The notes under the pieces were generated by a model. The model had not been told where the DNA came from and made no database searches. It saw nothing but the letters and a program-made list of their open reading frames with translations. Below, piece after piece: positions 14,091 through 46,651 of a stretch of 64,000 bases of DNA. The stretch lies in NCBI RefSeq assembly GCF_009906835.1, contig NZ_CP047652.1, forward strand, positions 505,001 to 569,000. The letters are read 5' to 3'. The position numbers and the translations under genes were made by a program. The stretch's first letter is position 1. Every line of letters begins with the position of its first letter. This DNA comes from Aristophania vespae (GTDB lineage: Bacteria; Pseudomonadota; Alphaproteobacteria; Acetobacterales; Acetobacteraceae).

Positions 14091-15272
14091 GTGAATATAG
14101 CATCAATTAGGCGCTTTTTTAAGCAACCTGCTGGAGGGGCTATTATCCTTCTAGTAGCGTCCATATTAGGCTTTTGGGCGGCTAATTCTTCTTTATCGGG
14201 GGCGTATTTTAGTCTTATTGAGGCAAAAATACCTCTTCCAGGCTTAAGCGCAAACTTAACTTTTGAAGAATTTGTGGCCACAGGACCAATGGCGCTGTTT
14301 TTTTTGATAATAATGATTGATATTAAAAAAGAACTGGTCTCTGGTCATCTTTCTTCTATCAAAAGCGCAGCTCTCCCTTTGATTTCGGCTTTGGGCGGTA
14401 TGATTGTGCCGGCTTTAATCTATATCTTAATGACATTAACTCACCCCGATGTTTTTCGGGGATGGGCTGTGCCAATTGCGACTGATGCTGCTTTTACTTT
14501 GCCTATTATTTTGGCTTTAAGCCATTATGTTTCTGATGGCGCGCGTGTTTGGCTTGTTGCATTGGCGATTTTTGATGATGTACTAGGGATTGTCGTTATC
14601 GCACTTTTTTACGGTTCAGCCTTTAATTATATTGCCCTTCTGGCGGCTCTTATAATCACTCTGGGCCTTGTGGTACTTAATAGAGTTTATATTCAGTCTT
14701 TATGGGCCTATGGGATTGGGGGCTGTTTGTTATGGGTGGCGCTGTTGGTGTCTGGCGTGCATCCGACAATCGCAGGGGTGATTACGGGGCTAAGCCTGCC
14801 AAGCTATAGCAAATTAGGTGAAATCGCTCCGTTACAAAAAGCAGAAGAAGTTTTTTATCCCTGGGTAAATTGGTTGATTCTGCCCGTTTTTGGTTTTGTA
14901 AGTGTGGGCGTTTCACTCTCAAATATGACTACTGAGATGATTTTTGCGCCTGTTACATTGGGCATAATGCTTGGTTTGCTCGTGGGCAAACCCATTGGGG
15001 TATTTGGCGCAACTTATTTAGCGCAAAAACTCAAAATAGCATCGCTACCTTATAATACTTCGTGGGAAATGATTTTTGGTCTCTCCATATTATGCGGCAT
15101 AGGCTTTACAATTAGTCTCTTTATAACGGGCTTAGCCTTTTTTAATACGCCTTATCTTATTCAAGCAAAATTAGGCATTTTTGTTGGCTCAATTCTTGCA
15201 GCGCTTATTGGGTGGGCGTGGCTAAGATTTTACTGCTCACCAATTATGCAGCTTCATAAATATAAGCATTAA
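14091..15272 (+). CDS. nhaA: Na+/H+ antiporter NhaA
   Basis: Inner-membrane sodium/proton antiporter for pH and sodium homeostasis, 393 residues against 388 in E. coli. The functional acidic residues are conserved: D132 in IATDAAF and D162–D163 in ALAIFDDVLGIVVIALFY, equivalent to E. coli D133, D163 and D164. Matching regions include ALGGMIVPALIY and SGVHPTIAGVITG. The start is GTG after GAGAGTATCA. It ends the coding run; a long AT-rich gap follows with no recognisable terminator hairpin. Confidence 0.94.
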   Translation: MNIASIRRFFKQPAGGAIILLVASILGFWAANSSLSGAYFSLIEAKIPLPGLSANLTFEEFVATGPMALFFLIIMIDIKKELVSGHLSSIKSAALPLISALGGMIVPALIYILMTLTHPDVFRGWAVPIATDAAFTLPIILALSHYVSDGARVWLVALAIFDDVLGIVVIALFYGSAFNYIALLAALIITLGLVVLNRVYIQSLWAYGIGGCLLWVALLVSGVHPTIAGVITGLSLPSYSKLGEIAPLQKAEEVFYPWVNWLILPVFGFVSVGVSLSNMTTEMIFAPVTLGIMLGLLVGKPIGVFGATYLAQKLKIASLPYNTSWEMIFGLSILCGIGFTISLFITGLAFFNTPYLIQAKLGIFVGSILAALIGWAWLRFYCSPIMQLHKYKH

Positions 15273-17000
15273 TTATGCTCTAAGAGCTGTTAGGTGAGCG
15301 AGAAAAAACTGAGCCTACGATCTGCAAAAAATTGTAGCAAAGTTACAAATTATTCGTTCTCCGCGTCAGGGTGGAGGAGAGGGTGAAATATATATATCTG
15401 TTAGTTACGTGATTGGCATATTGATACTGTTTTTAAGTGTGTTCACGTTATTATTTAGAGTAGGAAATTGTTATCATAGTTCTCTGTATTTAAATTTACT
15501 AAAAATATACAAAAATAATGAAACTATAGGCCATAAAGCCTATATATAATGATCGCATTAAATCAAAAAAGTTCCTGCATATAAAACATGTTTATCGGGT
15601 TCTAAGCTCTAAAAAACATTGCGTTACTTTGCAGCAAAATATGTAGGCGCTTATATTTCTGCTCTAAAATATAATATCTTGAAATATGGTCACTTACAGC
15701 TAATTCTCATGCACTAAAAGACTGTTAAATTGCCACCCAAAAGCGCTACCAACATAAAAAGTCATTAATACTGCTTTTAGGACTAAAGCCTAATGTAGAG
15801 AGCTTTATCTCTTTTCACTATGGCTTTACCCATAAAAGTGATAGTTCTTTTACACTAAGTTACGTCAAAAGTAATATTTAATATAGAGTTGCATAATAAT
15901 ATATTATAATAATATTTAATTAAAAATCTAATATTTTTTAAATTACTTTAAATTTGTAAAAAATTATTACTCTATAAATAAACTAATACATTATAACGTT
16001 AATTATAACAAAGCCTTATGTAATTTAATGAAAAGTTTTTTATAAAATAATAGTACTTATATTGTTTTTTTAATTCTAGCTAAATTATTACAAAATAAGG
16101 TAATATAACTAAAAGCTATCTAATCAATTTCTCGATTTTGTAAATTAATAAATGTGATGAAAAACTCGCGATTAGTATAGCATTGTTATAAATTGAAACA
16201 TGTTTTTCATGATCTGAAATCTATTAACTCTTTAAAAGGCTTTGTCATAAAAAAAAACTTTTACTGTGTGTAAGAAGAAATTCGAAGCTTTTTAGAAAAA
16301 AGAAAGCAGGTGTTTTTCTGGGCTATGAACAGTAGAAACCATTTTTTACCGTTTAATAGCACTTAATTATAGGTTTATAATTACCGTAAAATGCTCATAA
16401 TATATGTGTCAAAAGTAATTATGTAACTTATAGTTGAATGTTGTTTTGGCTTAATTTTAATATATGTTGTAAAGTATCTTATTAATCAAATTAAGAAAAA
16501 ACCTTAAAGTAAGTTTGATATGATTATTTTATTCTTTCTAAGTAGTGTAAATTTCTGTGTTTTTCTTTAATTATGAAAATATATAATTATATATTGTATA
16601 AATTTATTTATGTGCTATAAATATCTTATCTTATCTTATCTTATCTTATCTTATCTTATCTTATCTTATCTTATCTTATCTTATCGCAGGAATTTTATTC
16701 TTTGTGTTTGTTGAGTTTAAGCTTTTTATTTCATGTAAAAATTTATATAGGTTACCAGATCCCAAAAGATGTCGTTTTATTAATCACTTTGGGAAATGTT
16801 AAAAATGTCTGATTTTATAAATCTTTAAGTATATTTCAATATTATCAGTTGTTGTAAAAAATATTTACTTATAAACATATTTAATTTATATTAATACTAT
16901 AAATTATTTGAGATCTCTAAAAAATAACTTTAATGCTGGCATATTATGAAGGATAATATTAATAAATTTGTAATTCCAAAGCTAATTGTCAAAAACTTTT
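15273..17000. other. 1.7-kb AT-rich intergenic stretch without a recognisable gene
   Basis: Both strands are dense with stop codons and very AT-rich compared with neighbouring genes. I find no tRNA, no protein family and no transposase remnant. The only ordered elements are a TTATC microsatellite (16626–16685) and short hairpins such as AGGC…GCCT near 15528–15543. It may be decayed coding DNA or a regulatory/structural region; I cannot tell which. Confidence 0.7.
16626..16685. repeat. pentanucleotide microsatellite (TTATC)12
   Basis: Twelve perfect tandem copies of TTATC, with a further partial copy (TATC) just upstream at 16622–16625. Read on the plus strand the repeat has no stop codon and would encode L-S-Y-L-I repeats. 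A short frame starting ATG at 16610 runs through it for about 34 codons to a TGA just after the repeat, but it has no clear ribosome site and is probably fortuitous. The repeat is ~315 bp beyond the 3' end of the lipid-kinase gene. Confidence 0.98.
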
Positions 17001-17909
17001 CTAAAAGTTGTTACTATTATTTTTTGGTACTAATAGTCTCAAAGGGTGTGGAGATATAGATATTTTTATTTCTTTTGCCGAAAAAACATCACCATCAATT
17101 TGCATAAAAATATTATCAGATGCGGGAACGATAATTTCTTTGGCTGTTATGATTTCTAGGTGGTCTGTATTTTTTTTGCAAAATAATAGCTTTAAAAAAG
17201 CTAAGCCAAATTTGTAAAAATTATTACAACGAAAAAGTATAGCGTCACAATTTTTACTGCTTTGTTTACTTGCTGCCGTTATTTGAAAATTACCGCCATA
17301 AAAGCAGCCTTTAGATATTATCGCTGCGTTAATTTTGTAGCTGTGACCATCTATAAAAATACTAAATTCAGGAAATTTATAGCGCAATATCATCAAAAAT
17401 GTTGACAGAACATAAGCGGCTCTACCAAAAATTTTTTTTATTTTAGTGGAAACATTATGTACAACCCAACCATCGGGACCCATGCCGAGCATTTGGATAA
17501 AAATTGTTTTTGATTGATCAGAACTTACAATAGCGGGCCATATTTCCTTTTGGCAATAATGAGAAATCATAATAGCGTTTCTGCGGTCATTAAAGTCTAT
17601 ATTCAGCTCGCGGGCGAATACGTTAGCTGAGCCAATAGGAAACAGAGCCAAAGGGATCGTCTGGCCTAGTAAAATTTGAGCAATTTCGGAAATTGTACCA
17701 TCACCACCACCTATAATAATGAGATCAAGTTGAGTCCCAGAGTTGATATAATTTTGTGCGAGCTGAGCACCATGTCCCTTAAAATGCGTTGGCTCAACAA
17801 AAACATGCCAATTTAATTGCTGCAAATAATGCACAAATTTGTGGAGCCGTCTTTTAGAATAATGGCCTGCAATAGGATTAACGATTAATAATGCATATCT
17901 AGTAAGCAT
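17001..17909 (-). CDS. diacylglycerol/lipid kinase family protein (DAGKc domain)
   Basis: A 302-residue protein of the YegS/DgkB-type lipid kinase family. The N-terminus ALLIVNPIAGHYSK and the nucleotide motif IIIGGGDGTISEIAQIL (near 66–82) are followed by LALFPIGSANVFARELNI, all hallmarks of the catalytic DAGK domain. The C-terminal half (NAAIISKGCFYGGNFQITA, then DGDVFSA) fits the beta-sandwich domain. It would phosphorylate a lipid such as diacylglycerol or a sphingoid base at the membrane. It lies isolated between two gene-free AT-rich stretches and is itself AT-rich (many Ile, Asn and Lys), possibly acquired; that is inference. Confidence 0.85.
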   Translation of the reverse strand: MLTRYALLIVNPIAGHYSKRRLHKFVHYLQQLNWHVFVEPTHFKGHGAQLAQNYINSGTQLDLIIIGGGDGTISEIAQILLGQTIPLALFPIGSANVFARELNIDFNDRRNAIMISHYCQKEIWPAIVSSDQSKTIFIQMLGMGPDGWVVHNVSTKIKKIFGRAAYVLSTFLMILRYKFPEFSIFIDGHSYKINAAIISKGCFYGGNFQITAASKQSSKNCDAILFRCNNFYKFGLAFLKLLFCKKNTDHLEIITAKEIIVPASDNIFMQIDGDVFSAKEIKISISPHPLRLLVPKNNSNNF

Positions 17910-45994: not shown

Positions 45995-46651
45995 GTGCAT
46001 CAATATATCGTTCCACTTATAGCATTTTTAGCGACGTCTATCGTTTTTACTCTCACCCCAGGGCTAGATACTGTGATGATTCTCCGCACTGCTGCTGGAG
46101 ATGGGCGTAAAATGGGGATGGGTGCTGTATGCGGAATTGCTATAGGGCTTGGAATTTGGGGGTTGGCAGCTGCCTTAGGGTTAACAGCGCTTTTAGAAGC
46201 CTCCAAAACGGCTTTTTTTCTTTTAAAATGTGCTGGTGCTGTTTATTTAACGTGGCTCGGTCTGCACTCCTTAATCAGGCCAAGAACCAGCTTTGCTACA
46301 GAAATTAAAAAAGTTTCACCGCGAGTGTCAAAAATCAAAACTGGCCCGTTTGGTATAGGCATACGCAGAGGCCTTATGACGGATTTACTTAATCCAAAGG
46401 CTGGTATTTTTATTATGACGTTTTTTCCACAATTTATACCACCTCATACCAATGTTGCTCTTTTTACGCTTATTATGACAGCCATTCAGATGATTCTTGC
46501 GTTTCTGTGGCTGAGCTTGCTGGTTATTTTGACGGTGCCTCTAGGAGGAATTTTGAAAAAACCAGCTGTAGTGAAATGCTTGGACCGTCTGTCAGGAATT
46601 GTGTTCATTGGTTTTGGTATCAAAATTTTTATGACACGCAACCCTATCTAA
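45995..46651 (+). CDS. LysE/RhtB-family amino-acid exporter
   Basis: A 218-residue inner-membrane protein with about six hydrophobic segments. The family signature FTLTPGLDTVMILRTAAGDGRKMGMGAVCGIAIGLG is at about residues 18–53, and LLKCAGAVYLTWLGL and RRGLMTDLLNPKAGIFIMTFFPQFI are typical. The exported amino acid cannot be named. The start is GTG after AGGACC. It lies 63 bp behind rodA and is probably only transcriptionally linked to the shape operon. Confidence 0.88.
   Translation: MHQYIVPLIAFLATSIVFTLTPGLDTVMILRTAAGDGRKMGMGAVCGIAIGLGIWGLAAALGLTALLEASKTAFFLLKCAGAVYLTWLGLHSLIRPRTSFATEIKKVSPRVSKIKTGPFGIGIRRGLMTDLLNPKAGIFIMTFFPQFIPPHTNVALFTLIMTAIQMILAFLWLSLLVILTVPLGGILKKPAVVKCLDRLSGIVFIGFGIKIFMTRNPI

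Follow-up and report, generated by a model that had tools for sequence, protein, structure and literature searches.

The question raised by this locus is whether a short word, repeated without error in the DNA between two genes of Aristophania, serves the cell in some way or has simply grown there. The window (the whole stretch of DNA that was analysed, 64 kb long) carries twelve perfect TTATC units at 16626–16685 in a gene-free stretch, just as the sequence-only reading had described, and the letters TATC at 16622–16625 prolong the period-5 run, which shows 100% matches from end to end, abrupt edges and pure units (Table 1). When perfect arrays with units of 1–12 bp were collected throughout the window at thresholds of at least 20 bp and at least 2.5 copies, this was the only one. 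Moreover, sequence simulated from the gap with an order-2 Markov model (200 × 20 kb, 4 Mb) had no perfect period-5 run longer than 20 bp, against the 64 bp observed. That is to say, with a period of five, which falls in the class of 5–11 bp, and a length beyond chance, the array is a long simple sequence repeat (LSSR). Sporadically distributed LSSRs with units of 5–11 bp have been described as a class in prokaryotes (Mrazek, Guo and Shah 2007, as cited in the available part of PMC4679880), and the TTATC array agrees with what is said of them there in being a perfect short-unit tandem array of that class, longer than chance and sporadic among taxa, whereas the present host, a wasp-associated acetic acid bacterium, sets it apart.

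Table 1. Coordinates of the TTATC array, its surroundings and related features in the window
Feature	Position	Strand	Remarks
(TTATC)n / (GATAA)n perfect microsatellite	16622..16685	.	12.8 copies, 64 bp
Gap between convergent genes	15273..17000	.	1728 bp, 24% GC
nhaA, Na+/H+ antiporter, left neighbour ending at the gap	14091..15272	+	Pfam Na_H_antiport_1, E=3e-117
YegS/DAGK-type lipid kinase, right neighbour ending at the gap	17001..17909	-	DAGK_cat, E=5.5e-21
34-codon open frame through the array	16610..16714	+	repeat by-product, no evidence of a gene
Terminator-like site in the gap	15525..15544	-	expected number 0.4
LysE-like relative of the open frame in the sister's gap	46016..46471		E=3e-11

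The gap in which the array lies ranks 7th in length among the 509 gaps of the sampled chromosome. The ends of its two neighbours had been placed correctly by the sequence-only reading (15272 for nhaA, and 17001 on the minus strand for the kinase), and since these convergent genes both end at the gap, the array is in the promoter of neither, which bears out the non-promoter position already proposed for it. The left part of the gap (15273–16625) has no further copies in the own genome, no plasmid relatives of the gap were found, and viral relatives of the kinase were not confirmed.

A search for TTATC arrays at other loci, which had also been suggested, found none besides the window's in the own genome (2.02 Mb in 2 contigs), where at least four copies in a row stand at one place only. 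Among 395 sampled genomes of the order, arrays of at least five copies occur in the own genome alone, the 394 others having none, and the reversed control word gave no match in the rows of this sample. The array had been called rare, and this holds for its word within the order (1 of the 395 sampled genomes), but it does not hold for long simple repeats as such, of which the same chromosome contains others. In a collection of 84,980 species, 28 stretches with at least eight copies of TTATC were found in varied bacteria and archaea, some of them sharing one genome, and 23 of these stretches lie outside genes called by a simple rule. The flanks of each of the 28 (up to 800 bases on either side) were compared with those of the window; no similarity reached E<=0.01, as would be expected of independent origins. 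Their record titles name no acetic acid bacterium, some titles being too broad to tell.

In order to place the array in its own chromosome, the window was combined with 38 stretches of 20 kb (819 kb, about 42%), and perfect repeats were kept if they reached at least 24 bp with units up to 8 bp, or at least 30 bp. Long repeats of this kind occur at 14 loci, with octamer units at 8, heptamers at 3, hexamers at 2 and a pentamer, TTATC, at one; runs of at least 60 bp are found at 11 of them, and no unit is shared between loci in any rotation or on either strand. By simple extrapolation, the whole chromosome would hold about 34 arrays. The predominance of octamers (8/14 loci) differs from the heptamers given as the most abundant LSSR units in most genomes, as far as the available part of PMC4679880 goes. 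Genes around the arrays were called by a greedy longest-ORF rule (at least 100 codons, no gene finder), and probabilities were based on about 15% of the sequence being non-coding. In the raw call, 12 of the 14 arrays lie at least partly outside called genes (p about 1e-8), the two enclosed ones being that of L094, whose frame is mostly repeat, and that of L095, which occupies the opening codons of an asparaginase frame. With the repeat-made frame of L094 set aside, the number becomes 13/14 (p about 3e-10), and in the strictest count, where both enclosed arrays are left out together with two that share 8 bp with the end of a called gene (L123:5016-5142 and L129:478-543), it is 10/14 (p about 4e-6). 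Six of the 14 arrays lie at 0.80–0.97 Mb (L086, L123 and L124), a lower-GC region next to which the GC skew switches, suggesting the replication terminus.

Several members of this set deserve description in their own right. The array at L094:13752-14289 (about 1.614 Mb) has more than 50 copies of the octamer TTTCGTAG in 538 bp, which is very long for a bacterium; a 44-base T run (T44) lies inside it at L094:14167-14210, and an (AATACC)28 array stands 1.5 kb from it. At L079:1533-1817 there is a two-block octamer array, in which one unit variant (about 17 copies) is followed by another (about 19). The variant blocks of L079, which point to expansion by blocks, and the T44 in the L094 array are marks of slippage. 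As to gene starts, the L123:5016-5142 octamer array precedes a TonB-dependent receptor gene by about 310 bp, the L124:5226-5380 octamer array precedes an MFS transporter gene by about 170 bp, and the hexamer array at L095:6237-6275 is at the start of the asparaginase frame. The last probably lies upstream of the true asparaginase start, with a stretch following that looks by eye like a signal peptide, and it is the strongest candidate among the arrays for influencing expression.

In the single other Aristophania genome compared (G001), the order of nhaA and kinase is kept, with protein identity of 54% and 46%, respectively, and the array is absent at the same place. Between the two genes there is instead a different open frame of 207 codons, LysE-like by eye; no tandem repeat occurs across 9 kb around the site, and a blastn comparison of the two gaps yielded no more than matches of 10–21 bp, not beyond chance. 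The idea that the window's gap is a remnant of that open frame was rejected, as tblastn of this and nine other sister frames gave a best E of 0.25; a LysE-like relative of it is found elsewhere in the window (Table 1). The notion that long repeats are absent from the sister genome-wide was dropped as well, a 169-kb sample having none and 480 kb having three. The sister also has long repeats, such as a perfect (ACGCCA)42 of 254 bp at L148:16219-16472.

With the same filter, G001 has 3 arrays in 0.480 Mb against 14 in 0.819 Mb of the own chromosome (p=0.13), and one array of at least 60 bp against 11 (p=0.07). Four further genomes from the family (G030, G014, G026 and G033) yielded a single array in 0.52 Mb between them (p=0.014 against the own genome). 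The length filter removed two shorter rows from this count, one of 26 bp in G014 and one of 20 bp in G026, and the G033 assembly is a draft in about 30 contigs, fragmented assemblies being able to lose long arrays. The own load is therefore high against the four family genomes but not significantly above that of the sister. A repair defect as its cause was rejected: a MutS-family gene, xseA and recJ, the three covered by this test, are present in the own genome, so that the loss of none of them explains the repeat load.

We consider it very likely that the TTATC array is a neutral pentanucleotide microsatellite, grown by slippage in a little-constrained gap and without a present function visible in its sequence. 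In this process, slippage of the DNA polymerase would give rise to the array and enlarge it; as the promoter of neither neighbour lies in the long AT-rich gap, little would select against it there; and slipped loops of five bases would be too large for efficient mismatch repair, so that the copy number should drift with no repair defect needed. It has been reported that loops of more than 3 bp are weakly repaired (PMC4060949, in the part available). The earlier view that an array of this type slips readily is supported to this extent. Against the microsatellite reading it must be said that slippage at the TTATC array is what we infer, as are its continuing instability and its lack of function; that the repair genes are present while the load does not significantly exceed the sister's; and that a gap of 1.7 kb in a genome of 2 Mb might hide an unrecognised RNA. 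The array is ordinary in kind; what makes it mildly notable is its membership in a set of long chromosomal repeats.

It is also conceivable, though unlikely, that the long repeats with units of 5–8 bp in the Aristophania chromosome (some 30–35, as extrapolated from 42% of it), some of which are near gene starts, are hypervariable and act jointly as contingency loci or as a reservoir of evolvability in an insect symbiont, the TTATC array being one member. Among the 11 arrays with called genes on both sides, the gaps are convergent in 4 cases, divergent in 3 and co-directional in 4, against 3.5, 2.6 and 4.8 expected by bases in gaps of at least 500 bp (p=0.88), and 2.5, 2.6 and 5.9 expected by bases in all gaps (p=0.44); the set has no preference for promoter-bearing gaps. 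In addition, 21 of 23 neighbouring frames of the arrays were scanned by Pfam. Matches were obtained to isochorismatase, flavin oxidoreductase, HxlR regulator, sulfatase, asparaginase, TonB receptor, SurE, amidase, S24 peptidase, MFS (two), acetyltransferase, ferritin, alanine racemase, adenosine deaminase and EamA; catalase and 4HB_MCP fell below the cut-off, and three frames had no match. By eye, these neighbours do not lean to surface genes.

Less probable again, and in our judgement very unlikely, is that the TTATC array is by itself a contingency (phase-variation) locus, in which the copy number alters the expression of a neighbouring or overlapping gene. The length and purity of the array suit slippage, and a few other arrays of the set, those ahead of the TonB-dependent receptor and MFS transporter genes and in the asparaginase leader, are near gene starts. 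Phase-variable simple sequence repeat loci, such as those of Haemophilus and Neisseria, act in reading frames or promoters, and the TTATC array has the slipping type in common with them but lies between convergent gene ends. It is found in neither the promoter nor the frame of a real gene, its neighbours being convergent and its own frame trivial, with no family match above the cut-off. The 34-codon frame from ATG 16610 does exist as the sequence-only reading stated, but from 8 to 16 copies it would shift only between 29 and 70 codons. The gap has 16 promoter-like sites, about as many as shuffled sequence gives (mean 14.7), and the set's lack of preference for promoter-bearing gaps also speaks against such a locus.

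Slightly less likely still, a binding or structural element might be supposed, with the array serving as a row of GATAA sites, as a stretch that unwinds easily or as a spacer separating the convergent transcripts. The very low GC of the surroundings (19.8% at 16500–16999) and the even spacing that GATAA sites would have suit such an element, but a dispersed protein-binding repeat would have one unit at several loci, and here there is neither a second TTATC array in the genome nor one in any of the other 394 genomes sampled from the order, while the sister lacks the array at the same place. The other arrays found have other units, and this possession of its own unit by each Aristophania array argues against a common binding factor. 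A comparison can be made with the marine Beggiatoaceae, in which, according to the available part of PMC4679880, the direct repeat TAACTGA is intergenic and recurs as one unit in many sets across the genome; the intergenic direct repetition of a short unit is alike, whereas one recurring unit there stands against an own unit per array here. Moreover, only the flanks are paired in the predicted folds of either strand, the array itself remaining unpaired and without predicted structure. The earlier suggestion of a protein-binding array is not supported: the TTATC locus is the only one of its unit in the genome, the 13 other long repeats differ from it in unit, and the promoter-like sites do not rise above the shuffled level.

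A further explanation, to which we give only a very small probability, is that the array lies within an unrecognised transcript or small protein gene of the gap. The 1728 bp of the gap leave room for one, and open frames do cross the array. However, all three plus frames are open through it, and the TTATC units read L-S-Y-L-I in each, so that an open frame is no evidence of a gene; the minus strand (GATAA) has one stop per five codons. No ribosome-binding site was seen by eye ahead of ATG 16610, whose frame has no Pfam match, and the two other plus frames through the array gave Pfam matches below the cut-off only (E=0.22 and 0.47). Since the unit letters themselves keep the frames open, and among the 14 longest stop-free segments of the gap none has a Pfam match above the cut-off, the coding idea of the sequence-only reading is not upheld. 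At the RNA level, Rfam at gathering score found in the window only one tRNA, outside the gap. Finally, bases 16560–17000 have no similar DNA in 38 of the 39 other genomes, with one 32-base match in G014. An assembly or base-calling artefact in the copy number is the least credible explanation of all and extremely improbable: the 44-base T run in another repeat is a kind of sequence easily misread, but an array of 64 bp is short enough for ordinary reads to span, and the genome is in 2 contigs.

Regarded as a neutral microsatellite, the TTATC array alone matters little, yet it is a ready marker for strain typing. It resembles VNTR/MLVA loci as a short-unit tandem array in non-coding DNA and a likely strain marker, with the difference that those loci are defined by copy-number variation, whereas the TTATC array is known here from one chromosome. 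Together with the other arrays, it belongs to a wasp-associated bacterium that has many long repeats despite a MutS-family gene, recJ and xseA, and Aristophania therefore offers a harmless system in which to study why microsatellites of 5–8 bp build up in some bacterial chromosomes. In the titles and abstract openings of the Aristophania papers listed by a literature search, tandem repeats of the genus are not a subject.

The plasmid contig of the own genome was compared with pDM15PD (Aristophania vespae, from a Polistes wasp), to which it is 99.4% identical over the first 20 kb and 98.8–99.4% identical in three blocks covering nearly the whole plasmid. Its single short array, 25 bp with a 10-bp unit, does not differ in length between the two plasmids. 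The 53-kb plasmid (NZ_CP092735.1; own contig C2, L067, L098 and L099) carries a large flagellar gene set, including flhA, fliF, fliG, flgK, motA, fliI and more, by which motility may be plasmid-borne in A. vespae.
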